DNA of 64,000 nucleotides from Mesobacillus jeotgali. GTDB lineage: Bacteria; Bacillota; Bacilli; Bacillales; Cytobacillaceae. The DNA is taken from assembly GCF_014856545.2 (NCBI RefSeq), contig NZ_CP109811.1, positions 2,970,001 through 3,034,000 on the forward strand. The letters run 5' to 3'. Positions 21,013-32,361 of this stretch are shown piece after piece. The position numbers and the translations under genes are program-made. Position 1 is the first letter of the stretch; every line of letters starts with the position of its first letter. The notes under the pieces are model-generated. The model made no database searches. It was not told the origin of the DNA and was given only the letters and a program-made list of their open reading frames with translations.

Positions 21013-21294
21013 TCAAGATGAAAAATCAAAGTAATTTCGCTTCAACAACCTTGGCTGCGCCATCAATTCTTCAAAGGTGACCACCTTGCCGAGTTTTTTC
21101 GTATCGATTAAAAATAATTGGTCTTCGATTTCCTTTGTGATCAATTCGGTCTGGTATGTCATTTGGCAGTCAAGACAATGGATGGCGGGCGTTTCATCGA
21201 TTTGGATCGCTTTTGTACCATCCGGAAGTTCCCAATAGACTTTGTCTGTTACAGCTTTGGTTTTTTCACTGCTGCACCACTCGCATTTTGCCAT
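21013..21294 (-). CDS. yokU: YokU family zinc-finger protein
   Basis: A 93-residue protein with CEWC near the N-terminus and CLDC near residue 40, the YgiT-type (MqsA N-terminal) zinc-finger arrangement, followed by a helical tail that lacks the MqsA Xre-type helix-turn-helix. Its start codon overlaps the kamA stop (TGATG), so it is translated with kamA. In bacilli it accompanies kamA consistently; its role there is not known to me. Confidence 0.9.
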   Translation of the reverse strand: MAKCEWCSSEKTKAVTDKVYWELPDGTKAIQIDETPAIHCLDCQMTYQTELITKEIEDQLFLIDTKKLGKVVTFEELMAQPRLLKRNYFDFSS

Positions 21295-22733
21295 CAGTCA
21301 ACCCCCTTAGTCGTAGGAATAGCTCCCTGGCCATCAACCGCTTCAGCTGTCGTTTTTTTCTGCTGTGCCATGAACTTCTTTTCCTTCAGCTCATCACGTT
21401 TGTCACGCTTATCCTTCAGGGATGAATGTGCAGGGTCTTCCTCGTACTTTTCCCTGCGGTCAATCCGGCCAAGACCTTCAGGAATCAGGTTGAATTCACT
21501 GTCGTTCATAATCGCTGCTATTCCAGTATTCGATTTCTTCTTCTCATAGTCCGGATACACTTGTTTGAAGTAACCCTCCGCTCTGCCTGGAACATAATTT
21601 TCAGGCTCAGGATAGGAGGTGATCACACCTTCAAAATTCCGCAGGACAACTTTTTCAGGGCTTTGGGAAATCAGGTAATTTGGCTGCAAGGAGATTTTCC
21701 CTCCTCCGCCAGGCGCATCCACCACGAATGTAGGGACGGCGTAGCCGGATGTATGCCCCCTTAAGCCTTCAATAATTTCGAGACCCTTTGTGACCGGGGC
21801 ACGGAAATGGCCGATGCCTTCAGACAGGTCACATTGGTAAATATAATAAGGGCGTACACGGATTTTAACGAGGTCATGCATAAGCTTTTTCATAATCGGG
21901 ACACTGTCATTGATTCCTGCAAGTATCACGGATTGGTTTCCAACTGGGACCCCAGCGTTGGCAAGCATTTCACAGGCTCGCTTTGAGTCTTCAGTAATTT
22001 CAATTGATGTGTTGAAGTGTGTATTCAGCCAGATTGGATGGTATTTTTTGAGGATTGAACAAAGATTCTCTGTGATTCGCTGCGGGAAAACAACTGGTGC
22101 ACGAGTTCCAATCCTGATGATTTCAACATGGTCGATTTCTCTCAGGTTCTTTAAAATATATTCAAGAATATTATCATTGATCAGGAGACCATCTCCGCCA
22201 GATATCAATACATCCCGGACTTCTGGGGTATTCCTGATGTAGTTTATTGCGGCATCAAGCTGTTTTTTCGCAACCCCCATGCCGATTTGTCCCGAAAATC
22301 TTCGCCTTGTGCAATAGCGGCAATACATTGAGCATTGATTGGTCACGAGGAAAAGCACCCTGTCAGGATATCTGTGCGTCAAACCAGGTACAGGTGAATC
22401 TTCATCTTCATGAAGTGGATCTTCAAGATCATATTTTGTTTTGTGAATTTCCTTGGAGATTGGCACTGACTGCATCCTGATCGGACAGCGCGGGTCGTCT
22501 GGATTCATTAATGAAGCGTAGTAAGGTGTTATATTCAGTGGGATTGTTTTCGTCGAGATCCTGACACCCTCTTCTTCATCGGGTGTGAGATTAATAACCT
22601 TCTTTAAATCATCCAGTGTCCTGATTGTATTTGTAAGCTGCCACAGCCAGTCATTCCATTGTTCATCCGTAACATCCTTCCAAAGCTCTATATCCTTCCA
22701 GTGTCTTGAAGGCTTATATAAAGTCTGTTTCAT
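21294..22733 (-). CDS. kamA: L-lysine 2,3-aminomutase KamA
   Basis: A 479-residue radical-SAM, PLP-dependent enzyme that converts L-lysine to L-beta-lysine. The [4Fe-4S] motif is CSMYCRYC (Cys134, 138, 141); the nearby DVLISGGDGLL binds SAM and GIRAPVVFPQR-type motifs (IGTRAPVVFPQRI) follow. The C-terminal extension (about 420-479) is long and charged, as in Bacillus relatives. It is preceded by a sigma-54 promoter (22771-22786) 38 bp upstream and by kamR, which fits activation by KamR. Translationally coupled to yokU. Confidence 0.97.
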   Translation of the reverse strand: MKQTLYKPSRHWKDIELWKDVTDEQWNDWLWQLTNTIRTLDDLKKVINLTPDEEEGVRISTKTIPLNITPYYASLMNPDDPRCPIRMQSVPISKEIHKTKYDLEDPLHEDEDSPVPGLTHRYPDRVLFLVTNQCSMYCRYCTRRRFSGQIGMGVAKKQLDAAINYIRNTPEVRDVLISGGDGLLINDNILEYILKNLREIDHVEIIRIGTRAPVVFPQRITENLCSILKKYHPIWLNTHFNTSIEITEDSKRACEMLANAGVPVGNQSVILAGINDSVPIMKKLMHDLVKIRVRPYYIYQCDLSEGIGHFRAPVTKGLEIIEGLRGHTSGYAVPTFVVDAPGGGGKISLQPNYLISQSPEKVVLRNFEGVITSYPEPENYVPGRAEGYFKQVYPDYEKKKSNTGIAAIMNDSEFNLIPEGLGRIDRREKYEEDPAHSSLKDKRDKRDELKEKKFMAQQKKTTAEAVDGQGAIPTTKGVD

Positions 22734-22770
22734 CCCAATTCCCCCTAGCTATTTTTATAGCTATTTATAA

Positions 22771-22786
22771 TGCAAGTTCCGTGCCA
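22771..22786 (-). promoter_or_regulatory. Sigma-54 (RpoN/SigL) promoter of kamA
   Basis: TGGCAC-N5-TTGCA on the minus strand, a full match to the -24/-12 consensus, 38 bp before the kamA ATG and directly downstream of kamR, whose product is a sigma-54 activator. Confidence 0.92.
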
Positions 22787-22863
22787 AAAGTGACGGATTA
22801 TTCAGAATTCACTAAACCCGCTTTCTGTAGCACTTTGTGACACTTGCCAAGGGGATTTGATCT

Positions 22864-22898
22864 AAAAAAGAAAATAACCTGCTGAAAATTCGGCAGAT
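22864..22898 (-). terminator. Weak terminator after kamR
   Basis: CTGCCGAAT/TTTTCAGCAG hairpin followed by TTATTTTCTTTTTT on the minus strand. It separates kamR from the kamA promoter. Confidence 0.5.
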
Positions 22899-22905
22899 TA
22901 GAATC

Positions 22906-24294
22906 TCACAGATTTAATTTTTTCATTTTATATTGCAGTGTCTGTCTTGGAATGTCGAGGAGGACGGCTGCTTTCTGGACATTGCCGTGAGAAGCATCCA
23001 GCGCATCATTGATTAATTGAATTTCAAGCTCTTTAAGGTGGTCTCTCAGAACAAATGAAGTACGTGTTTCTTCAGACTGTTCTGGCTGGATGTTTTTCAT
23101 CATCATTGGCAGATCATGCCCCATCAGCATACTGCCTTCACATACATTCATCATGTATTCAATAGTATGCTTCAGTTCCCTGACATTACCAGGCCATGGA
23201 TGTTTATAGAAAATGGCTTTTACATGGTCCTCAAGCCCAGAGACATTCTTCCTCAGCTGCTTGTTATATTGACTGATAAAGATATCAGACAAATAAAGAA
23301 TATCTTCTTTCCTTTGCCTTAAGGGGATCAGTTCAAATGTCAATACATTCAAACGGTAAAACAGATCCGTGCGCAGCTGGTTTTCTTCCATTGCCTGTGC
23401 AGGGTAAACGTTCATCGCAGAAATCACCCTGACGTTGACAGAGATGACATGAGTACTTCCGATTCTTCTGACAGCACCATCCTCTAGAACACGAAGAAGC
23501 TTGGCCTGCAGGTCGAAGGGCATCGAATTAAGCTCATCAAGAAAAAGTGTTCCACCATTAGCCAACTCGAACAAACCTGGCCTGTCCACTGCTCCAGTAT
23601 AGCTCCCCTTTGATGTGCCAAACAGGATGCTTTCAAGCAGGTTTTCCGGAATTGCCGCACAGTTTTGCGCTATGAAAGGTCCAGCTGACCGACTGGAGGC
23701 GTTATGGATGGATTGGACGAAAAGCTCCTTTCCGGTCCCGCTTTCCCCATACACTAGAATCGGAGAATCAGATTTTGCCAGTTTCTCCGCCTTCTTTTTA
23801 ATCGTCATAAAATGCTTATTGCTTGTAATCAGGTCGCTGAACGTATAGCCGGCTTGTTGTTTAACGGCTTTCCCGCCACGATGCTTATTATTCTTTTGAA
23901 TTTCGACCAGGCGCTCAGAAAGCTGCTTGATTTGAGAATAATCCTTTGCAATTTCAACTGCACCGATCAATTCTCCCTGCACAAAGATTGGCAGTGTCGA
24001 GTTGACAGTATCAATTTTCCGCCCATGCAAATTGACGAAGGACTGGGTTTCATTATAGATCGGTTTCTTCGTTTCAATTACTTTCAATAGAGTGCTGGAT
24101 TGATTGTTCAGTGAAGGAAACACACTAAGCAGCGGCTTTCCAATCACCTCACTGATATCCAGTCCATCATGCCTGGCAGCTACTTCATTATAGAAAATGG
24201 TAATCCCCTCTGTGTTCACGACATGGATTGCCTCGTCGATGCACTTCAATATTGCGCTCAAGATTTCTTCGGTCACATTGGATACTGAATTCAT
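22906..24294 (-). CDS. kamR: Sigma-54-dependent PAS-domain activator (KamR)
   Basis: A 462-residue activator of the bEBP type. An N-terminal PAS domain (about 10-120; [34 protein letters not shown]) senses an unknown signal, presumably lysine or a pathway intermediate. The AAA+ domain (about 150-390) has Walker A GESGTGKE, the sigma-54-contact loop GSYTGA (variant of GAFTGA) and Walker B LFLDEL. A Fis-type HTH ends the protein ([23 protein letters not shown]). Start: ATG after GGGAGTGTG; the frame opens 21 codons earlier. Its place in the kam cluster matches KamR of the B. cereus group. Confidence 0.93.
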
Positions 24295-24346
24295 CTCATC
24301 ACACTCCCATATTGAGTATATGACAGAGTGCCGAAAAACTGTCTTT

Positions 24347-25213
24347 TCACTGCCCAAAATTTGGCGGTTTTGCCAAATCTTTTACCCAAACGTTCATGTT
24401 TTCAATTTTATCATAGATAAACACATTGTTCACAAGTCTGCCACGGTATGCATAACCCAATTGATGCAAGGCTGCGTTCATTCCGAACGATAATGCCCTG
24501 GCGATGGAGTAAGAACAATATATGCCATTTTCAATCAGTTCCTCTTCAAGGCGGGCCAACAGTACCTTCATCAACCCGTGTTTCCTGTGCTCTTTTAATG
24601 TGGCACAATCAGTCATCTCTGCATTTTTATAAAAAGAGTCCACTTCTGCTGATGCCGCGCTTACGATCTGACCATCATGGACAAAACCGTAATAAATGGT
24701 TCCTTCTCTCATTGTTTTGACGATATACTCTGGATTATTTAAGGGTGTGGGATAAATTTGGAAAACCGCTTTATATAATTCAGACAAGCCTTCTGCATCT
24801 CTTTCGTCCATCTTTTTCATAACGTAATCCTTCGGGGGTGTAATGTTCTGTGCTGGCTCTGCCAGATGGTAAACACTTTTAATGATTCCATCCTCTTGAA
24901 GCCAATGCGGTGAAGTCCTTCTTTCGTCGCTGAAAAACTTCGAAAAGAACACACAGTCAGAGCCCAGGAAGAACCCGTCAATACTTGCTTCAAAACTGAA
25001 ACCTCGTTCGATCAGCTGTGTAAAATGCTCCTTCCTTGCCTTGATGATTAATTTGTCTACTTTTTCGCTCTCCACAAGCTTTTCAGCTTGCTCCAAAATA
25101 TCTGGCAAGCTGCCCAAATAATCTTCCACCCTGACCCGCTTATTCTGTGGATCAAGATAAACGGTTAGATTATAGTTTTTTTCTGATAAGGTCATTGTTT
25201 TGCCTAAATGCAT
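24347..25213 (-). CDS. yodP: Beta-lysine N-acetyltransferase (YodP/AblB)
   Basis: A 288-residue GNAT-fold protein. The acetyl-CoA site is in the C-terminal half (about 140-270; MKVLLARLEEELIENGI, HKLGYAYRGRLVN). The N-terminal half is specific to the AblB/YodP family. It transfers an acetyl group to the epsilon-amino group of beta-lysine, forming N6-acetyl-beta-lysine, known as a compatible solute in archaea and as an intermediate here. Start: second ATG, seven bases after GGGGG. The gene follows a hairpin at 25255 and is 52 bp upstream of kamR. Confidence 0.93.
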   Translation of the reverse strand: MHLGKTMTLSEKNYNLTVYLDPQNKRVRVEDYLGSLPDILEQAEKLVESEKVDKLIIKARKEHFTQLIERGFSFEASIDGFFLGSDCVFFSKFFSDERRTSPHWLQEDGIIKSVYHLAEPAQNITPPKDYVMKKMDERDAEGLSELYKAVFQIYPTPLNNPEYIVKTMREGTIYYGFVHDGQIVSAASAEVDSFYKNAEMTDCATLKEHRKHGLMKVLLARLEEELIENGIYCSYSIARALSFGMNAALHQLGYAYRGRLVNNVFIYDKIENMNVWVKDLAKPPNFGQ

Positions 25214-25254
25214 GTTCATTCCCCCAATACCTGCTATAAGAATTTAAATCGTAT

Positions 25255-25280
25255 GAAAAGCCTGGCTTTGGGCCAGGCTG
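25255..25280 (-). terminator. Terminator between the ALDH gene and yodP
   Basis: AGCCTGGC-CCAAA-GCCAGGCT followed by TTTC on the minus strand. It should limit read-through from the upstream catabolic genes into yodP-kamR. Confidence 0.7.
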
Positions 25281-25284
25281 ACGG

Positions 25285-26706
25285 TCAATCCAGTTTGATT
25301 GAAACAAGCTTCAGTTCGGTCATTTCTTCTAAAGCGTATTTAATCCCTTCTCTGCCGGTTCCACTCATTTTGACGCCGCCATACGGCATATGGTCTACCC
25401 GGAATGTTGGTATTTCATTGATCATCACACCGCCGACATGGAGTTTTTTTGCCGCTTGCATCGCTTTTTGGAGATCATTCGTATAGACTCCTGCCTGCAA
25501 CCCGTACTTTGAATCATTAGCCTTAGCTATCGCATCAGCGAAATGATTAAAAGTATTGATATGGACAACCGGTGCGAATACTTCCTCACAGGAAATTTTA
25601 TCAGTGAGCTTTGCATTGAGCAGCACAGTTGGCTTCAATATTTGCCTTTCACCATCTCCGCCATATACCAGCTCCGCTCCGTTTTCCACCGCGGCCTGGA
25701 TCCAGGCTTTTGCCCTGGTCACATCATTTCCGCTAATCATGGCAGCTAAATCTGTTTGCTCATCCAGTGGATCTCCCACCTTCAGTTTACCAGCTTCTTC
25801 AATAAACAAAGAAACAAATTCAGCAGCGATCGCTTCGTGTACGAAAATCCTCTGGATAGAGATGCAAACCTGCCCCTGATTAGAAAAGGCTCCAGTAACG
25901 ATTCTCGGCATTACCTTTTTAAGATCAGTTCCTTCATCGACAATCAAGGCCGAATTAGAACCTAGTTCCAGAGTTACTCGTTTCAACCCGGCATTTTCGC
26001 GTATATGCTTCCCAACTTCAGGACTTCCCGTAAAAGTGACCATCTTCACCCGGTCATCAGCAATCAGCACATCACCAACACTTTTCCCGCTGCCAGTCAC
26101 TACATTCAGCGCACCCGCAGGGAGTCCTGCTTCATGGAAGTAGGAAGCAATTTTATAGGCTGATAATGGGGTCTGGCTGGCTGGCTTAAGGACTACCGTA
26201 TTCCCGGCAGCGATTGCCGGCCCTACTTTATGGGCAACAAGGTTCATCGGGAAGTTGAAAGGAGTGATCGCAGCTATTACTCCCAGCGGCTCTCTTACCG
26301 TATAGGCGACTCTTCCCTCGCCTCCAGGAGCTGCGTCCATCGGGATTGTTTCGCCGTGAAGCCTCCTTGCTTCTTCTGATGCAAACCTATAGGTCATGAT
26401 GGTACGGTCGACTTCACCACGAGCAGCCTTCAATGGTTTGGAGGATTCCTCCGCGATCAGGCGGGCACACTCGTCCCTGTCCTCCTGGATTAATTCAGCC
26501 ACTCTCCGAAGGATGTCTGATCGCTTATGTGCATCCATCTCTGCTATCGTCACTGCTGCCCCGGCAGCTGAATCAATCGCCTTTATCACATCTTCTTTGC
26601 TTGCCTCTGCTACATCAGCAATTTTTTCTCCATTAAAAGGATTAAAAAGCGGACGATAATTATCACATTCAACACTTTCACCATTAATCCATAAATTCTG
26701 TCCCAT
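25285..26706 (-). CDS. Aldehyde dehydrogenase of the kam cluster (candidate succinate-semialdehyde dehydrogenase)
   Basis: A 473-residue NAD(P)-dependent aldehyde dehydrogenase. Visible motifs: FNFPMNLVAHKVGPAIAAGNTVVLKP, TFTGSPEVGKHI, the general base in LELGSNSALIV and the catalytic Cys in NQGQVCIS. Start: ATG behind AGGAGGGG, nine codons inside the longer frame. It is 11 bp downstream of a GABA-type aminotransferase, so succinate semialdehyde is a natural substrate; other omega-oxo acids from lysine are possible. I do not recall this gene in the B. subtilis yod cluster. Confidence 0.93.
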   Translation of the reverse strand: MGQNLWINGESVECDNYRPLFNPFNGEKIADVAEASKEDVIKAIDSAAGAAVTIAEMDAHKRSDILRRVAELIQEDRDECARLIAEESSKPLKAARGEVDRTIMTYRFASEEARRLHGETIPMDAAPGGEGRVAYTVREPLGVIAAITPFNFPMNLVAHKVGPAIAAGNTVVLKPASQTPLSAYKIASYFHEAGLPAGALNVVTGSGKSVGDVLIADDRVKMVTFTGSPEVGKHIRENAGLKRVTLELGSNSALIVDEGTDLKKVMPRIVTGAFSNQGQVCISIQRIFVHEAIAAEFVSLFIEEAGKLKVGDPLDEQTDLAAMISGNDVTRAKAWIQAAVENGAELVYGGDGERQILKPTVLLNAKLTDKISCEEVFAPVVHINTFNHFADAIAKANDSKYGLQAGVYTNDLQKAMQAAKKLHVGGVMINEIPTFRVDHMPYGGVKMSGTGREGIKYALEEMTELKLVSIKLD

Positions 26707-26717
26707 TGTTTCCCCTC

Positions 26718-28046
26718 CTACCGCTGGCAGCATTCAGTGATTGCTGATTCTAGTACATCGAATCCTTCCTCCATTTGATCCTCTGTTATGACCAGAGGAG
26801 CTAAAAGCCTGATTACATTTCCATAAAGGCCAGCGCTCATTAAAATTAATCCTCGCTGATGAGCTTTTGCAAGTATTTCTCGAACGATTTGTCCGTTTGG
26901 CCGCTCATTCTCATCGAAAAATTCGATTGCACACATAGCACCTAAGGAACGGATATCTCCTACTTCTGGAAAGCTGTCGGTCAGCTTTCCGAACCTTTGT
27001 AAGAACTTCTCCCCGAACAGGTTCGCTCTATCAAGAAGATTTTCCTTTTCTATCATTTTAACGACTTCTATTGCCGCTACACAACCGAGAGGACTTCCTC
27101 CAAAGGTGCCGCCAATTTCCCCAATACCCGCAGAGTCCATAATTTCAGCTCTTCCCGTGACGGCACTGATTGGCAGCCCCGCGGCAATCGATTTTGACAT
27201 CGTCATCAAATCGGGGACGACACCGTAGTGCTCCATCGCGAACATCTTTCCTGTCCTGCCGAAACCGGTTTGGATTTCATCTGCAATAAAGAGAATCCCA
27301 TACTGTTCACAAATTCTCTTCACTCCTTGAACAAAGGTTTTGGAAGGAATATTAAATCCGCCTTCACCCTGAATCGGTTCCATTATGACAGCAGCAATTT
27401 CGGTGCCAGGAACCTCGCTTAGGAAAAATGTCTCAAATTTTTTCAGCATATAGGCATCGAGTTCTTCAGGTGCCATGCCTTTTTCTTGAGAATACACCGG
27501 GTATGGCCATTTATAGGTTTCCGGAGCGAACGGTCCGAACTGATACTTGTATGGTTTGACCTTGCTCGTCAGCGACATTGCCATATAGGTCCTTCCGTGA
27601 AAGCCTCGTTCAAAAGAAATGATTCCTTTTCGGCCTGAATATTTCCTTGCTATCTTTATCGCATTTTCTACGGCCTCTGCACCGCTGCTCAGGAAGAATG
27701 TTTTTTTATCATGTGTCCCTGGAGTAATATTGTTTAGAATTTCCGCAAGTTCTATATATGGTTCATACATCATCACATGGAAGCAAGGGTGCAGATAACG
27801 GTCGATTTGCTCATGAAGTGCTTTTACTACATTACTTGGACAGTGGCCTACATTCAGTGTGCCGATTGCGCCCGCAAAATCGATGAATGTATTCCCATCA
27901 ACATCCGTCAATAAGGCACCTTCTCCTCTTTCTGCAAACGACTTGATTGTGTTGAACGGTCCCACAGGGATATTTTTCTCTTTCCGCTCTAACAATGCCT
28001 GTGCCTTTGGGCCTGGTATAGCTGTGTTAATCTTTATATCTCCCAT
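26718..28046 (-). CDS. gabT: 4-aminobutyrate-type aminotransferase (class III)
   Basis: A 442-residue class-III PLP aminotransferase. Motifs: FLSSGAEAVENAIKIAR, FHGRTYMAMSLT, EPIQGEGGF, FIADEIQTGFGRTG (the Asp that binds the PLP nitrogen) and SKSIAAGLPISAVTG, with the PLP Lys in TMSKSIAAG. Overall closest in pattern to GabT (4-aminobutyrate-2-oxoglutarate transaminase). Located 23 bp after yodQ and 11 bp before an aldehyde dehydrogenase, it is part of the same transcript. The precise amine donor is inferred. Confidence 0.92.
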   Translation of the reverse strand: MGDIKINTAIPGPKAQALLERKEKNIPVGPFNTIKSFAERGEGALLTDVDGNTFIDFAGAIGTLNVGHCPSNVVKALHEQIDRYLHPCFHVMMYEPYIELAEILNNITPGTHDKKTFFLSSGAEAVENAIKIARKYSGRKGIISFERGFHGRTYMAMSLTSKVKPYKYQFGPFAPETYKWPYPVYSQEKGMAPEELDAYMLKKFETFFLSEVPGTEIAAVIMEPIQGEGGFNIPSKTFVQGVKRICEQYGILFIADEIQTGFGRTGKMFAMEHYGVVPDLMTMSKSIAAGLPISAVTGRAEIMDSAGIGEIGGTFGGSPLGCVAAIEVVKMIEKENLLDRANLFGEKFLQRFGKLTDSFPEVGDIRSLGAMCAIEFFDENERPNGQIVREILAKAHQRGLILMSAGLYGNVIRLLAPLVITEDQMEEGFDVLESAITECCQR

Positions 28047-28069
28047 TTGTTTGATTCCCCCTTTTTTCT

Positions 28070-29338
28070 CTAATCGCTGACCTCACACCACTTAAGCAAA
28101 GCAAGTGCAATGATTTCAGCCGCTTCAAAAACATCTTCAAGCTTTATATATTCATTCGCCTGATGTGCCGTTTCCGTTACCCCGGGTCCAAAAACAACTA
28201 CAGGCACCCCACCGACCTTGGAGAGGATCCCGCCGTCAGTTGCCCATGGGGATGCCTCAATTAATGGAGACTTTTCCTTAATGTCCATAAAGCTTTCTGA
28301 AAGGACATGAATCAACTCATGTTCAGGATCCAGGTCGCCTGGCAGCCAGCTTGCACCGAACCATTCAAGTTCAGGAGCATTTTCTCTCAGCCATGTATCT
28401 ACGTTACAGACTTCGGCAATGGCTTCAAACATTTCACGCTTTGCCTCATCTTGTGTTTCATTAGGGGCCACCCCCATCCTGCCCTCAATTACAGCTAAAT
28501 CCGGTACAGATGATGGCCAGTCTCCAGCATGGATCTTTCCAATATTAATAGGAATCGGGATTGGTATGCTTTCAAAAAACGGATCAGTGATTCTTTCATT
28601 TCTCTGAGACTCCAAGATTCTCAGTCTATCAATGACCAGCATCGCTTTCTCAATCGCATTGACACCTTCATACCTCGTTCCGCCATGCGCCCCTTTTCCT
28701 TTCACTGAAATCCGGAACCACATGGATCCCTGCTGTTTTGGAAACAGCTTCATATTTGTCGGCTCAGGGATGATGGCTGCATCCGCTTTATAACCTCTCA
28801 GGACAGTGGCAAGTGTTCCTGCACCACCGCTTTCTTCTTCGATTACACTTTGAAAAATGACATCGCCCTTTAGCTTGATTCCTGAATTTTTTATTGCCTC
28901 CATCGCCATTAGCAGTGAAGTTGTGCCGCCCTTCATATCTGTCGAGCCTCTGCCAAATAATTTGCCGCATTCGATATGGCCGCTGAACGGGTCCCTTTCC
29001 CAATCTTTTGCATCGCCTGCCGGAACAACATCAATATGTCCATTGAGGATCATCGACTTGCCTCCACCTGTTCCCCTCATGATTCCTACAGCGTTTGGGT
29101 TTCCATTGAAGTCTTTTCGATCTGAACAAAAAGCGGGGTGAACAGTCAGTCCGTTATCCCCGATTTCCCAAATATCCATTTCAAGACCCAGCTCGCGGCA
29201 TTTTTCAATAATGACTGCCTGCGCTCCGCTTTCATCCCCTCTAGTACTCGGTTCCTGAACTAATTTTTGCAAAAGCCGGGTCCCTCTTATTCTGCTTTCT
29301 TTAATGTAATTCCTCACCTTTTGCTCAGGCGTTTGCAC
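28070..29338 (-). CDS. yodQ: M20-family amidohydrolase YodQ
   Basis: A 422-residue zinc amidohydrolase of the ArgE/DapE type. The metal-binding His-Asp is in GHIDVVPAGDAKDW, the bridging Asp in GRGSTDMKGG and the catalytic Glu-Glu pair in VIEEESGG; the dimerisation domain starts at GKGAHGGTRYEG. These enzymes cleave N-acyl groups from small amines or acids; in the lysine cluster a deacetylation of N-acetyl intermediates is likely. Start GTG with AAAGGGG upstream; the frame opens 20 codons earlier. Fourteen bases separate it from yodR. Confidence 0.93.
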   Translation of the reverse strand: MQTPEQKVRNYIKESRIRGTRLLQKLVQEPSTRGDESGAQAVIIEKCRELGLEMDIWEIGDNGLTVHPAFCSDRKDFNGNPNAVGIMRGTGGGKSMILNGHIDVVPAGDAKDWERDPFSGHIECGKLFGRGSTDMKGGTTSLLMAMEAIKNSGIKLKGDVIFQSVIEEESGGAGTLATVLRGYKADAAIIPEPTNMKLFPKQQGSMWFRISVKGKGAHGGTRYEGVNAIEKAMLVIDRLRILESQRNERITDPFFESIPIPIPINIGKIHAGDWPSSVPDLAVIEGRMGVAPNETQDEAKREMFEAIAEVCNVDTWLRENAPELEWFGASWLPGDLDPEHELIHVLSESFMDIKEKSPLIEASPWATDGGILSKVGGVPVVVFGPGVTETAHQANEYIKLEDVFEAAEIIALALLKWCEVSD

Positions 29339-29352
29339 GTTATCAGCCCCTT

Positions 29353-30018
29353 TTAATATTCGATAATCCGGATATTTTCGTCGATTGTAAAATCGCATGC
29401 GGTCTTTTCGGTAACTTCAGCGATTGTATGTGGCGCAAAAAGTTCAGACAATATCAATGAACCGTCAATTATTTTAAAAACTGCGAGATCGGTGATGACC
29501 ATGTCAACACATTCAGAAGCGGTTAATGGCAGGGTACACGATTGAACTATTTTAGAAGCTCCGTTTTTATCACTGTGGTTCATCAATACGGCAACTTTCC
29601 GGGCTTTTTGTGCCAGCTCCATTGCCCCTCCCATGCCCGGAACCTTTTTGCCAGGTACAATCCAGTTCGCAATGTCCCCTTTTTGGCTAACCTGTAAAGA
29701 TCCAAGAATAGTAAGATCAACTCTGCCTCTGCGAATCATACCGAAGGCTATAGCACTATCACAATAAGAGGAACCTGCCATGACAGTGACTGGGAATCCA
29801 CCGGCATTGCACAGGTTTTCATCCTCATAACCTTTTTCCGGCGACTTCCCCATCCCGACAATTCCGTTTTCAGCATGGAACATGACTCTCGTTTTTTCGG
29901 GAAGGTGGTTCGGTACAAGAGAGGGAATTCCTATGCCCAGGTTAACAACCATGCCCGGAGAGATTTCTTCGGCGGCTCGTCTGGCCATTCTGTTTCTGAC
30001 ATCTATTCCCATGCCCAT
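29353..30018 (-). CDS. yodR: CoA-transferase subunit B (YodR)
   Basis: A 221-residue beta subunit of a class I (3-oxoacid) CoA transferase. The catalytic Glu is in HAENGIVGMG; GSSYCDSAIAFGMIRRGRVDLTILG and KKVPGMGGAMELA follow, and both are typical of the SCOT/AtoA family. It pairs with YodS, whose gene overlaps it by 16 bp. Possible starts are ATG (30018), a TTG two codons earlier and an ATG two codons later; GGAGGGG lies ten bases before the first ATG. Confidence 0.94.
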   Translation of the reverse strand: MGMGIDVRNRMARRAAEEISPGMVVNLGIGIPSLVPNHLPEKTRVMFHAENGIVGMGKSPEKGYEDENLCNAGGFPVTVMAGSSYCDSAIAFGMIRRGRVDLTILGSLQVSQKGDIANWIVPGKKVPGMGGAMELAQKARKVAVLMNHSDKNGASKIVQSCTLPLTASECVDMVITDLAVFKIIDGSLILSELFAPHTIAEVTEKTACDFTIDENIRIIEY

Positions 30019-30695
30019 TTCCAATTCACCCCTCCAGAAGGAATAACCATATCCACGAATACACCAGGCGTGACGATTTCTTCAGGATCCAGGCTGCCAA
30101 GGGGCACAATTTCCTCCGCCTCCGCGATGGTGAATTTTCCGGCCATTGCCACGAGCGGGTTCGTATTCCTGGCACTTTTATCAAAGACAAGATTTCCATA
30201 TGGATCTGCTTTTTTTGCATAAACGATTGAAACTTCGGCTGTTAACGCCGTTTCAATCAAATAATCTTTGCCGTTCAATGTCATTCTTTGTTTGCCTTTT
30301 GCAACAAACTCATGATCCACTCCTACATCTGTCAAAATGGCTCCAAGTCCCATTCCACCAGCGCGAATCCGTTCTGTCAGGGTTCCCTGCGGCGAGAATT
30401 CAACCTCTAGCTCTCCCTTGGTCATCAAGGTGCCTGCTACTGGATTGGATCCAATATGGGAGGCGATGACTTTCTTTGCTTTTCCGCGGCTGACAATTTT
30501 GCCAATGCCGATCTCGGGAAAACCTGTATCATTCCCAATCAGCACAAGATTTTTTATATCCTTTTCAAGAATACCGTCAATCAGGTCAGGGGGAGAGCCT
30601 ACTCCGCCAAATCCGCCAAACATCAAAGTCATTCCGTCATAAAAATGCTCCATTGCCTGCTCAAGCGTCGCTATTTTTCCATACGGATTATCCAT
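30003..30695 (-). CDS. yodS: CoA-transferase subunit A (YodS)
   Basis: A 230-residue alpha subunit of the class I CoA transferase. It has the glycine loop GGFGGVGSPPDLIDGI, FSPQGTLTERIRAGGMGLGAI and the closing PYGNLVFDKSARNTNPLVA. With YodR it should exchange CoA between an acyl-CoA and a 3-oxo acid. It follows yodT without a gap and overlaps yodR, so the three are co-translated. Confidence 0.94.
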   Translation of the reverse strand: MDNPYGKIATLEQAMEHFYDGMTLMFGGFGGVGSPPDLIDGILEKDIKNLVLIGNDTGFPEIGIGKIVSRGKAKKVIASHIGSNPVAGTLMTKGELEVEFSPQGTLTERIRAGGMGLGAILTDVGVDHEFVAKGKQRMTLNGKDYLIETALTAEVSIVYAKKADPYGNLVFDKSARNTNPLVAMAGKFTIAEAEEIVPLGSLDPEEIVTPGVFVDMVIPSGGVNWKWAWE

Positions 30696-32057
30696 CTACT
30701 TCTCAACTCCATCTTCACAAGGAAATCCCAGTATTCTATACACTTCCATGAATGTTGTCTTCAGCAATGCTATTAATTCATCAATCTCCCGCCTCGTGAT
30801 CGTCAGCGGAGGCGAGATAATTATTGCATCCCCTGAAAGGCCATCCAGACCGGCGCCTGCAGGATACAGCAATATCCCATGGTCCCTGCCCGCCTTTACC
30901 ACAATTTCAGTTAGTTTCATGCTTCGTTCAAACGGGAGTTTCGCACCTGGCAATCTGACAAATTCCAGACCGAGAAGCAAGCCCTTTCCCCGGACATCCC
31001 CGATAAAATCAAACTGATTTTTCAACTTATCAAGTTTATTTTTCAGGTACACAGACTTTGATTCGACTTCACTTAAAACTTGATTGTTCTCAAGGTATTC
31101 CATAACCGCCAGTGCGGCAGCGCAGGATTGTGGATTCGCGCTAAGAGTATGGCCGCTCATGATTGACTTGGAGCCATTCAGAATAGGCTCCATCACATTG
31201 TCACTGACAACCGTTGCCGCAATCGGGGCATATCCTGCTCCCATACCTTTACCAAGCGCGACAATATCGGGAATGATGTTCCAGTGTTCTGATGCCAGCA
31301 TCGTCCCTGTACGGCCAAAACCCGTCATGACCTCATCCGCAATGAATAATATATTGTTTTCATCACAAATCTTTTTAATTGTTTCGTAATAGCCTTCCGG
31401 GGGTGAAATCGCCCCTCCAGCCGCACCAATAACCGGTTCCGCAATAAATCCGGCGATATGGTCAGAACCAATCCGCTTTATTGCTCCCTCAAGCTCCATC
31501 GCACATAAAAAACCACACTCAGGCGCTGTGCTTTGATATGGACAGCGATAGCAATATGGAGGTGAAATCGATGGGAATTCTTCAAGCAATGGAACAAACC
31601 TTGCTCTTCTTCCCGGATGTCCTGACATAGATAGTGCACCCAGAGTGATTCCATGGTAGCTGATCCATCTTGATAAAATTTTTGTTTTTGTCTTAATCCC
31701 TTTCTCTTGCCAATACTGAATCGCAATTTTCAGCGCGGTTTCTGTAGCCTCTGAACCACTATTTACAAAGAAACTCCAATTCAAATCTCCCGGCAAAGCA
31801 TCAGCGAGTTTTTCCGCAAGCTTTTCTGCTGCCTCACTAGTGAATTGGGAGCGATAGACAAAAGACACACGTTTGGACTGTTCATGCATTGCCAGGATAA
31901 TCTCAGGAACTCCGTGTCCAATATTTGCTGTGACAGCCCCGGATGCAGCATCAAGATATTTCTTGCCATCTTTGTCAAAAAGAAAGACACCTTTACCATA
32001 GTCAATCTCTGGATAGCTTTCATCCAAGGCAGGTTTAATCAAGTAGGACGGCTTCAT
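30696..32057 (-). CDS. yodT: Class III aminotransferase YodT
   Basis: A 453-residue PLP aminotransferase. SGSEATETALKIAI, YHGITLGALSMSGH, EPVIGAAGG, FIADEVMTGFGRTG and LGKGMGAGYAPIAATV (PLP Lys) are conserved class-III motifs. It is the first gene of the yodT-S-R-Q-gabT-ALDH transcript. In the proposed pathway it would remove the beta-amino group of N6-acetyl-beta-lysine; this is inferred from context. A weak sigma-K-like CATA sequence precedes it, but I saw no sigma-54 site. Confidence 0.93.
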   Translation of the reverse strand: MKPSYLIKPALDESYPEIDYGKGVFLFDKDGKKYLDAASGAVTANIGHGVPEIILAMHEQSKRVSFVYRSQFTSEAAEKLAEKLADALPGDLNWSFFVNSGSEATETALKIAIQYWQEKGIKTKTKILSRWISYHGITLGALSMSGHPGRRARFVPLLEEFPSISPPYCYRCPYQSTAPECGFLCAMELEGAIKRIGSDHIAGFIAEPVIGAAGGAISPPEGYYETIKKICDENNILFIADEVMTGFGRTGTMLASEHWNIIPDIVALGKGMGAGYAPIAATVVSDNVMEPILNGSKSIMSGHTLSANPQSCAAALAVMEYLENNQVLSEVESKSVYLKNKLDKLKNQFDFIGDVRGKGLLLGLEFVRLPGAKLPFERSMKLTEIVVKAGRDHGILLYPAGAGLDGLSGDAIIISPPLTITRREIDELIALLKTTFMEVYRILGFPCEDGVEK

Positions 32058-32225
32058 AAATTCACTCCATTCACCGCAATTAAAATTAAATGGACATTCA
32101 GTAAATTGTATGAAATGAAAAGGGGAATCTTTCTTGAAGATATAAAAAATAAGTGGTACTAGCCTGGGATTTTCGAAATGGAGGGGATCTGATACATTTT
32201 CGTTGTTGATGACTGCCTACACTTT

Positions 32226-32361
32226 GGACAAAATCTGCTCATCCATCGGCTGTTTTGTCCGAACCAGGGGTGACTTCGGACAATTTCTGCTCTTCCACCA
32301 GTTGTTTTGTCCGAACCGGGGGTGACTTCGGACAATCCCGGCTCTTCCACCAGCTGTTTTT
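32226..32361. repeat. Intergenic tandem repeat, 52-bp period, about 2.6 units
   Basis: Units start GGACAA at 32226, 32278 and 32330, exactly 52 bp apart, and share TGTTTTGTCCGAACC and GGGGTGACTTC. In each complete unit GGACA...TGTCC can pair. The layout equals that of the 16557 array. It fills the gap between yodT and the S66 peptidase gene. Confidence 0.9.

Follow-up and report, generated by a model that had tools for sequence, protein, structure and literature searches.

The window, a stretch of 64,000 nucleotides from the Mesobacillus jeotgali genome, contains ten open reading frames between positions 21013 and 32057, all on the minus strand. The genes, their family scores and the predicted control elements are listed in Table 1. 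The kamA product was also compared with the glutamate and arginine aminomutase families; it scored under both cut-offs.

Table 1. Genes and predicted control elements of the cluster (window positions; scores in bits, with family cut-offs in brackets).
Feature	Position	Strand	Assignment and basis
yokU	21013..21294	-	small zinc-finger protein, YokU family; TIGR03829 138 (90.85), PF14122
kamA (ablA)	21294..22733	-	L-lysine 2,3-aminomutase; TIGR03820 641 (525)
sigma-54 promoter of kamA-yokU	22771..22786	-	TGGCACGGAACTTGCA, exact -24/-12 match
kamR	22906..24294	-	sigma-54 activator, PAS + AAA+ + Fis-type HTH; PF00158, PF08448, PF02954; start ATG 24294 assumed
yodP (ablB)	24347..25219	-	beta-lysine N6-acetyltransferase; TIGR03827 309 (205)
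hairpin between ALDH and yodP	25259..25279	-	8-bp stem, fold prediction
ALDH	25285..26733	-	aldehyde dehydrogenase, PF00171; assigned succinate-semialdehyde dehydrogenase, ALDH21-like
gabT	26718..28046	-	4-aminobutyrate aminotransferase; TIGR00700 564 (507)
yodQ	28070..29338	-	M20-family deacylase; NF005373 679 (428)
yodR	29353..30024	-	3-oxoacid CoA-transferase subunit B; TIGR02428 298 (244); TTG start as listed, tentative
yodS	30003..30695	-	3-oxoacid CoA-transferase subunit A; TIGR02429 210 (129)
yodT	30696..32057	-	class III aminotransferase; NF005375 720 (535)
sigma-E-like promoter of yodT operon	32105..32133	-	GAAAGATT ... CATACAAT, by sequence

An earlier note on this DNA had described ten genes on one strand, mostly separated by 0-25 bp. 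Strand and positions were confirmed, but three of the nine junctions exceed this spacing. Six junctions measure no more than 23 bp, and four of these are overlaps or zero. The wider ones are the 52-bp kamR-yodP junction (with ATG 24294 taken as the kamR start), the 65-bp yodP-ALDH junction, which contains the hairpin, and the 172-bp kamA-kamR junction, which contains the sigma-54 promoter. The ten genes are probably transcribed as more than one unit. The start of yodQ is most likely the GTG at 29338 and not the ATG at 29398, which lies inside yodR. Identical genes in identical order were found in another member of the genus (L139) and in Mesobacillus subterraneus (L148); at a further locus of the genus (L136) nine genes were picked up, with kamA partial and yokU missed. 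Protein identities to the window at these three loci were 82-97% (75-87% for YodP). Such conservation far exceeds chance.

Both elements of KamR-type sigma-54 control, the -24/-12 promoter at kamA and an adjoining bEBP gene, are present. Of the 66 loci with kamR directly upstream of kamA, 58 have a sigma-54 consensus in the 350 bp before kamA, and KamR is expected to activate kamA. Such activation of the kamA sigma-54 promoter by KamR is described for B. thuringiensis HD73 (PMC4428206). Of 79 loci without pucR, 33 have a sigma-E-like -10 pattern ahead of yodT, where shuffling predicts 4.6; of 60 loci with pucR, 2 have it. The strict pattern, in which a -35 box was also required, was found in 2 of the 79. 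We propose that KamR and sigma-54 would turn on kamA-yokU, and that the sigma-E-like sporulation promoter would serve the yodT operon. The ALDH-yodP hairpin is a possible attenuator or weak terminator. Its stretch folds no better than shuffled sequences (z -0.47), and the terminator scan does not list it; that scan returned 8 sites in total versus 11.8 in shuffles.

The ten-gene block probably encodes a route that breaks L-lysine down to succinate by way of N6-acetyl-beta-lysine and GABA; we put the probability at roughly 0.7. KamA would convert L-lysine to L-beta-lysine, and YodP would acetylate its terminal amine, so that the beta-amine alone is left open to transamination. YodT is assigned the transamination of N6-acetyl-beta-lysine to 3-oxo-6-acetamidohexanoate, onto which YodS/YodR would load CoA. 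A thiolase would split off acetyl-CoA and leave 4-acetamidobutyryl-CoA, from which YodS/YodR may reclaim the CoA for the next 3-oxo acid in a self-priming transfer cycle. CoA release would come ahead of the deacetylation assigned to YodQ, which would yield GABA from 4-acetamidobutyrate (or from its CoA ester), and GabT with the ALDH21-like dehydrogenase would take GABA to succinate. The direct basis of this reading is gene families, neighbourhoods and co-occurrence; from these we infer every substrate, the identity of the thiolase, the CoA cycle and the control.

The co-occurrence was determined as raw genome counts in 398 genomes, with phylogeny ignored. Of the 72 genomes with YodQ, 69 have a KamA over its cut-off, versus 73 of the 326 without YodQ; YodP was found in 68 of the 72. 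At the level of loci, 136 of 145 have yodQ together with all three of yodT, yodS and yodR, and yodP is present in 126 of those 136; counting against the reading, yodT adjoins yodQ without yodS/yodR at L137 and L138. KamA-positive genomes had YodQ only (52), BKACE (DUF849) only (64), both (14) or neither (5). The sampled Bacilli with KamA thus fall into two largely exclusive downstream routes.

YodQ residues H101, D134, E168, E169, E192 and H392, which fall in the metal-ligand motifs of M20 deacylases of the ArgE/DapE type, were invariant in 15 aligned sequences. At L141 the order is GntR-GabT-YodQ relative-SSADH (over the TIGR01780 cut-off)-TRAP transporter. Flanked by a GABA aminotransferase on one side and a succinate-semialdehyde dehydrogenase on the other, at a locus with no lysine genes, this relative suggests an N-acyl-GABA substrate. 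YodQ-family members occur in other gene contexts too (L140, L143), a point against the reading.

The in-cluster GabT is the sole match over the TIGR00700 cut-off in the M. jeotgali genome; it scored under the narrower NF005376 cut-off (641 vs 676 bits). The ALDH passed no NCBIfam cut-off among the best 25 of 45 families. Its similarity to ALDH21 (5mz5; E 2.4e-109) ranked just after that to uncharacterised bacterial aldehyde dehydrogenases, and it scored well under the cut-off for the succinate-semialdehyde dehydrogenase GabD (TIGR01780, 388 vs 646 bits), where two other dehydrogenases of the same genome outscore it (439 and 431 bits). Arg110 and Arg445 align with ALDH21 arginines and are kept in all 52 cluster ALDHs; in role and numbering, they are presumably the two substrate-binding arginines of ALDH21-type enzymes. 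The pair is no proof of activity, since it also occurs in one of five other aldehyde dehydrogenases examined from this genome (L259) and is absent, in the alignment, from the canonical succinate-semialdehyde dehydrogenase of L141. The cluster ALDH owes its assignment to its resemblance to ALDH21 and to its gene context; it is not classed as a GabD.

Within 9 kb of 136 distinct yodT-S-R-Q clusters, gabT was found in 37, ALDH in 52, and one or both in 64. The 72 clusters with neither gene count against the proposed route. In 61 places among the 145 loci, the first recognised gene to follow yodQ is gabT or ALDH (same strand, at most 300 bp). Both had been thought to be an insertion supplying the final steps; they do recur in clusters, but as a common option and not as a special insertion.

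A thiolase lies between yodR and yodQ at seven distinct loci (L077, L078=L185, L080, L100, L171, L184 and L225), and these thiolases form one clade with support of 100/100. At L142 a thiolase of a different clade directly follows yodQ, which implies at least two recruitments into the cluster. Cys-His-Cys columns, presumably the catalytic residues, were kept in all ten aligned thiolases. Of the 398 genomes, 21 carry the dedicated thiolase (at least 71% identity; next match 55%); every one of these belongs to the 72 that have YodQ, and in 17 of the 21 it lies away from yodQ. Twelve of these distant regions were examined: seven thiolases share their operon with a second CoA transferase and an ABC transporter; the remaining five have no neighbour recognised by the reference set, although at one of them (L294) a further CoA-transferase gene lies at a distance of 2.4 kb. 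The dedicated thiolase may serve other 3-oxo acids.

The M. jeotgali genome has no member of the dedicated clade. The earlier note had placed the thiolase outside the window and asked for a co-regulated gene; general thiolases are present there, but none of the dedicated clade. The step would be drawn from these general enzymes, the most plausible candidate being the one at chromosome position 3208402, whose neighbours are a CoA transferase of two subunits and a gene resembling HMG-CoA lyase. An exact -24/-12 search found no sigma-54 site adjoining it. The proposed route from lysine through beta-lysine and GABA to succinate is supported by the comparative evidence, but it can be called 'complete' only if one of the general thiolases supplies the missing step. 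All steps at one locus, where the M. jeotgali cluster falls short by the thiolase, are encoded in Paenibacillus tyrfis (L171: amino-acid ABC transporter, glutamate dehydrogenase, yodT-S-R-thiolase-yodQ-gabT-ALDH, yodP, yokU, kamA) and Lihuaxuella thermophila (L185: yodT-S-R-thiolase-yodQ-gabT-ALDH, kamR, kamA, yokU, yodP).

Several other readings of individual steps were considered. YodQ might strip acetyl and CoA together from 4-acetamidobutyryl-CoA, which would make the CoA-transfer cycle unneeded. We regard this as possible but doubtful: no thioesterase gene was found in core-gene gaps over 330 bp at the 145 loci (frames of at least 85 aa), and the Pseudomonas deacetylase-thioesterase of Barker is said to remove both groups jointly, but the L141 relative of YodQ adjoins a transporter of the TRAP type, whose usual cargo is free carboxylic acids, and M20 deacylases, with their single invariant active-site set, are not known as thioesterases. 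It is rather unlikely that YodS/YodR load CoA onto N6-acetyl-beta-lysine first, with YodT as an acyl-CoA beta-transaminase. YodR and YodS score as 3-oxoacid CoA-transferase subunits, and Barker's transaminase reportedly works on the free acid; in favour of this order, Kat, a class III aminotransferase of lysine-fermenting bacteria, is described as using 3-aminobutyryl-CoA (PMC3149608). Gene order does not discriminate between the two sequences of steps. It is very improbable that a BKACE enzyme replaces both CoA transferase and thiolase by using acetyl-CoA to cleave the free 3-oxo acid. BKACE accompanies KamA in 64 Bacilli genomes lacking YodQ, and the genome (G051) of the L138 cluster, which lacks yodS/yodR, has one; however, G094, also without yodS/yodR in its cluster, shows none, in the 14 genomes with both genes the two are either on separate contigs or over 500 kb from each other, and yodQ has yodT, yodS and yodR with it at 136 of the 145 loci. 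The M. jeotgali genome gave 0 matches to PF05853, so the suggested DUF849 substitute for the thiolase is rejected here unless the enzyme is unrecognisable. A role of YodT in biotin metabolism with unrelated neighbours, speculated in one survey on the ground that YhxA, YodT and BioA show similarities of 33-35% (PMC6522883), is hardly credible, given the same yodS/R/Q and yodP association and a score under the BioA cut-off (322 vs 405 bits).

N6-acetyl-beta-lysine is a compatible solute in methanogens and some bacteria, and KamA and YodP might make it for that purpose, with yodTSRQ merely recycling it after stress. The cereus strain CECT 148 has been cited in support (PMC4685198), and the upper and lower modules are separable across genomes. 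Against it stand the sporulation-type promoter pattern and sigma-54 control, the SigE dependence of B. subtilis KamA and YodT given in the survey (PMC6522883), and the amino-acid ABC importer and glutamate dehydrogenase of some clusters; we consider it unlikely. Tentatively, the cluster could form the lower part of a modular system that consumes N6-acetyl-beta-lysine, with KamA and YodP as an optional lysine-fed upper module replaceable by an ABC importer, and with the full set in spore formers recycling mother-cell lysine to succinate. YodP is absent from four of the 72 YodQ genomes, three of which have yodTSRQ clusters (G289, G311 and G339); G311 and G339 also have no KamA over the cut-off, and G289 and G311 carry an amino-acid ABC transporter in or beside the cluster. 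The yodT of G311 is matched as two separate fragments and might be disrupted.

The chemistry of the lysine-to-succinate route is old; the new part would be the assignment of genes, in spore formers where they previously had no assigned job. The comparison makes the whole operon a testable pathway. N6-acetyl-beta-lysine transaminase and 4-acetamidobutyrate or 4-acetamidobutyryl-CoA deacetylase are known as orphan enzymes, and the comparison names candidate genes for both. The dedicated thiolase of relatives offers a part for pathway reconstitution. According to the 2019 survey, B. subtilis KamA is active in vitro, its physiological role was still undetermined and the function of YodT was open (PMC6522883).

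The intermediates proposed for M. jeotgali are the same as those of Pseudomonas B4. Barker and co-workers reportedly described L-beta-lysine degradation there in about 1979-1981 (EC 2.6.1.65, EC 3.5.1.51), through N6-acetyl-beta-lysine, 3-oxo-6-acetamidohexanoate, 4-acetamidobutyryl-CoA, GABA and succinic semialdehyde; the enzymes are known there as activities, and no assignment of their genes is known. In contrast, the route in M. jeotgali, a relative of spore formers, would start at alpha-lysine with KamA, rely on a CoA transferase of two subunits and on an M20 deacylase, and be under KamR/sigma-54 and sigma-E-like control. The ablAB osmolyte genes of methanogens share KamA and YodP making N6-acetyl-beta-lysine; no catabolic genes are known alongside them. 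In B. subtilis the gene order is yodT-yodS-yodR-yodQ-yodP-kamA. KamA and YodT are shared with that species, where the survey gives both as SigE-dependent (PMC6522883). Clostridial lysine fermentation (KamA-KamDE-Kdd-Kce) has the start with KamA in common but then uses a 5,6-aminomutase and a cleavage enzyme of the BKACE type (PMC3149608); the M. jeotgali genome has no BKACE. The HD73 report describes kamA behind a KamR-activated sigma-54 promoter, as here, and two operons covering kamA and six upstream genes; wild-type HD73, with its kam locus present, did not use lysine as a nitrogen source, which speaks against the pathway (PMC4428206). In HD73, gabT belongs to a separate operon (HD73_0366-0369) with its own activator GabR (PMC4428206), and gabT-gabD of B. 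subtilis form their own operon under GabR (PMC6522883), whereas in M. jeotgali gabT and the ALDH gene lie inside the kam cluster.

The window positions 2970001-3034000 are part of a single 4.84-Mb contig. The earlier note had read ten genes, which lie on the minus strand (yodT, yodS, yodR, yodQ, gabT, an aldehyde dehydrogenase (ALDH) gene, yodP, kamR, kamA and yokU), as a route from lysine through beta-lysine and GABA to succinate, and the families it named were borne out by reading frames and profile scans. A curated cut-off was passed by seven of the eight enzyme proteins (KamA, YodP, YodT, YodQ, GabT and both CoA-transferase subunits), each in agreement with the earlier reading; the model passed by YodQ carries the name 'peptidase' only, and that passed by YodT only 'aspartate aminotransferase family protein'. 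YokU was over its own family cut-off too. The cluster ALDH was over none of the curated cut-offs among the families listed. The gaps had been described as small, which holds for most junctions but not for kamA-kamR (172 bp), yodP-ALDH (65 bp) and kamR-yodP (52 bp). We infer at least two transcription units, one from yodT onward and one of kamA-yokU. Among the loci listed, the best YodQ identity to a named organism was 86%, with Mesobacillus subterraneus. The positions of individual features are collected in the table.

Positions of features in the cluster, elsewhere in this genome and in the loci of relatives
Feature	Position	Location	Basis
sigma-54 promoter, exact motif	22771-22786	172-bp kamA-kamR gap	
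Second exact sigma-54 motif	27393-27408	inside gabT	
GAAAGATT...CATACAAT element		upstream of yodT	sequence
Two 52-bp tandem repeat copies, 85% alike	32221-32324 (window)	immediately 5' of the yodT promoter region	
Thiolase gene with internal stop	G000:C1:4653158-4654314	this genome (L006, L008)	
Candidate thiolase for the cleavage step (best guess)	3208402	this genome	
CoA-transferase gene of a third kind	L294:12423-13451	2.4 kb downstream of the dedicated thiolase	
PLP synthase gene (SOR/SNZ, pdxS type)	L077:7001-7885	beside a yod cluster	
rpoN	L211:4955-6280	Paenibacillus montanisoli	
rpoN	L223:4924-6267	P. lignilyticus	
YodQ-relative operon	L141:7293-15113	genome G311	

The comparison was made on 156 loci. 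A sample of 398 genomes of the class gave 73 YodQ places beyond the window that passed the family cut-off; to these were added three places below it and 80 named loci. The three sub-threshold loci (L145-L147) had no yodQ at ≥47% identity and were dropped before counting. The gene was present at this level in 153 loci; after subtraction of 8 duplicates, 145 remained, and the full core of yodT, yodS, yodR and yodQ was found in 136. With kinship ignored, KamA was over its cut-off in 69 of the 72 genomes with YodQ versus 73 of the 326 without it, and YodP was present in 68 of the 72 YodQ genomes.

The cleavage step is where the proposed route had an alternative, a DUF849 enzyme (BKACE) in place of a thiolase. 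The genome search ruled it out in this genome, and linkage is also against it. Among 378 genomes, assumed to be G000-G377 (largest matching handle, G375), 135 have KamA, and with kinship ignored these divide into 52 with YodQ only, 64 with BKACE only, 14 with both and five with neither; because of this split, KamA appears to act in two largely exclusive routes among the Bacilli sampled. In the 14 genomes with BKACE and yodQ, the two genes either are separated by more than 500 kb or do not share a contig. Two loci, L137 (genome G094) and L138 (G051), were counted against the thiolase route, as yodT directly adjoins yodQ there without yodS and yodR; BKACE is encoded elsewhere in G051, and none was seen in G094. 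In G255, which is of the same genus as our genome, only part of the cluster kamA (L136/L307) is matched; at a distance of about 10 kb there is a further kamA-yokU pair, with identities of 87% and 62%.

The thiolase itself had been expected outside the window, and the genome does contain five complete thiolases plus another whose frame is broken by a stop, but the tree places none of them in the clade of the cluster thiolase, so they were rejected as its orthologues. A thiolase between yodR and yodQ was found at seven distinct loci, six of them with the full core; in the seventh (L225), the contig ends before yodT. At the locus L142, a thiolase directly follows yodQ, and an amino-acid ABC transporter, gabT and ALDH come next. 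The intercalated thiolases form one clade (100/100) and that of L142 belongs to another (100/100), which means at least two separate entries of a thiolase into the cluster. In ten aligned thiolases, the presumed catalytic columns (Cys, His and Cys) were invariant. Genes for every step occur at one locus in Paenibacillus tyrfis (L171) and Lihuaxuella thermophila (L185). The dedicated thiolase, that is the intercalated clade, was detected in 21 of the 398 genomes, all 21 being among the 72 with YodQ (kinship ignored; 13 of the 21 belong to one family). It lies away from yodQ in 17 of the 21, which was counted against the route. Twelve of these 17 regions were fetched; five had no neighbour recognised by the reference set, and seven, all from one family (L295, L297, L298 and L301-L304), had an operon of a second CoA transferase of the yodS/yodR type (49-57% identical), an amino-acid-type ABC transporter and the thiolase, with a divergent sigma-54 activator. 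One of the five (L294) carries a CoA-transferase gene of a third kind. Since the dedicated thiolase is mostly unlinked to yodQ and has other neighbours, it may also serve other 3-oxo acids as additional substrates. The yodQ genes of genomes G154 and G347 are shared with the Brevibacillus formosus and B. fortis loci. Among the thiolases of this genome, L001, which adjoins the genes of a two-subunit CoA transferase and an HMGL-like gene, is by identity closest or equal closest to the cluster thiolase (49-52%). Our best guess for the cleavage step in this genome is the thiolase at 3208402 with these neighbours. Another candidate was dropped, the sigma-54-flanked thiolase operon L035 (1.00-1.01 Mb), in which activator-like and acyl-CoA-type genes of its own were seen by eye.

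The six M20 active-site residues of YodQ were invariant in 15 aligned sequences. Judged from gene content, the best clue to its substrate is L141, a locus without lysine genes in which a GntR regulator, GabT, a YodQ relative, SSADH (TIGR01780) and a TRAP transporter follow each other. GabT, the YodQ relative and SSADH are each over their cut-offs, and no KamA is over its cut-off in that genome (G311). The operon probably serves the uptake and use of imported N-acyl-GABA. The yodT of G311 (L100) appears in two pieces, and a frameshift is possible. Other YodQ relatives (L140 and L143) adjoin other genes, further M20 enzymes among them, so a single substrate does not cover the whole family. A fold would not distinguish the free acid from its CoA ester as substrate. 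No extra thioesterase was recognised in the cluster interior of the 145 loci among same-strand frames of ≥85 aa in gaps >330 bp; the seven frames found were two sigma-54 factor genes, one YokU, one GntR-type regulator and three without a Pfam family.

For the GABA end, the region within 9 kb of yodQ was inspected in the 136 full clusters: gabT was present in 37 and ALDH in 52 (both in 25, only one in 39, neither in 72). One or the other is the next recognised same-strand gene after yodQ, within 300 bp, at 61 places among the 145 loci. PLP is the cofactor of KamA, YodT and GabT; a PLP synthase gene lies beside one yod cluster (L077). In this genome, no protein except the cluster GabT is over the GABA-aminotransferase cut-off. 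The SSADH cut-off was passed by no ALDH of this genome, and two ALDHs elsewhere in it scored 439 and 431 bits with the SSADH model versus 388 bits for the cluster ALDH. In sequence comparison, the latter is close to moss ALDH21, characterised as an NADP-dependent SSADH (PMC7823795). All 52 cluster ALDHs retain both ALDH21 arginines, as does one of five other tested ALDHs of this genome. These arginines are presumably succinic-semialdehyde ligands. Both are absent from the canonical SSADH of L141, and the pair therefore marks the ALDH21 type and is no proof of SSADH activity.

An exact sigma-54 motif precedes kamA. In relatives, the consensus was found within 350 bp upstream of 58 of the 66 kamA genes with kamR directly upstream, and at 65 of all 84 kamA genes scanned. 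The whole genome has 25 exact motifs versus 4 for the pattern read backwards, and these 25 can be taken directly as candidate sigma-54 promoters. The second motif in the cluster was taken as chance. In two Paenibacillus kam clusters, the interval between ALDH and yodT contains rpoN, whose sigma-54 product shows all three Pfam domains. Of the 79 loci without pucR, 33 have a sigma-E-like -10 pattern upstream of yodT, where shuffling would give 4.6; among loci with pucR the count is 2 of 60. When a -35 was required as well (strict pattern), just 2 of the 79 matched, so the -35 part is not established. Of the 136 full clusters, 58 have a PucR-type regulator encoded on the opposite strand (four of these proteins were checked against Pfam). 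The regulator is present at the five named Brevibacillus loci, with no kamR within the stretch compared. A hairpin before yodP was no better than shuffled sequence and not significant, and sigma-70 and terminator scans gave results near or below chance. In B. thuringiensis HD73, the kamA sigma-54 promoter is activated by KamR before late sporulation, and later control is by sigma-K and GerE (PMC4428206); SigE is required for KamA and YodT in B. subtilis (PMC6522883).

Data from PMC4685198, cereus CECT 148 included, were counted among the points against the route. PMC4428206 also states that HD73 did not use lysine as a nitrogen source, therefore the route in that species may be confined to sporulation. 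In a 2019 survey, the role of KamA was left open and YodT was guessed to act in biotin metabolism (PMC6522883). An assignment of a Barker-type pathway to the yodTSRQ genes was not found in the open-licence literature searched, which is a weak negative. The chemistry of the proposed route is that of Barker's Pseudomonas pathway; it would be known chemistry newly assigned to these genes.
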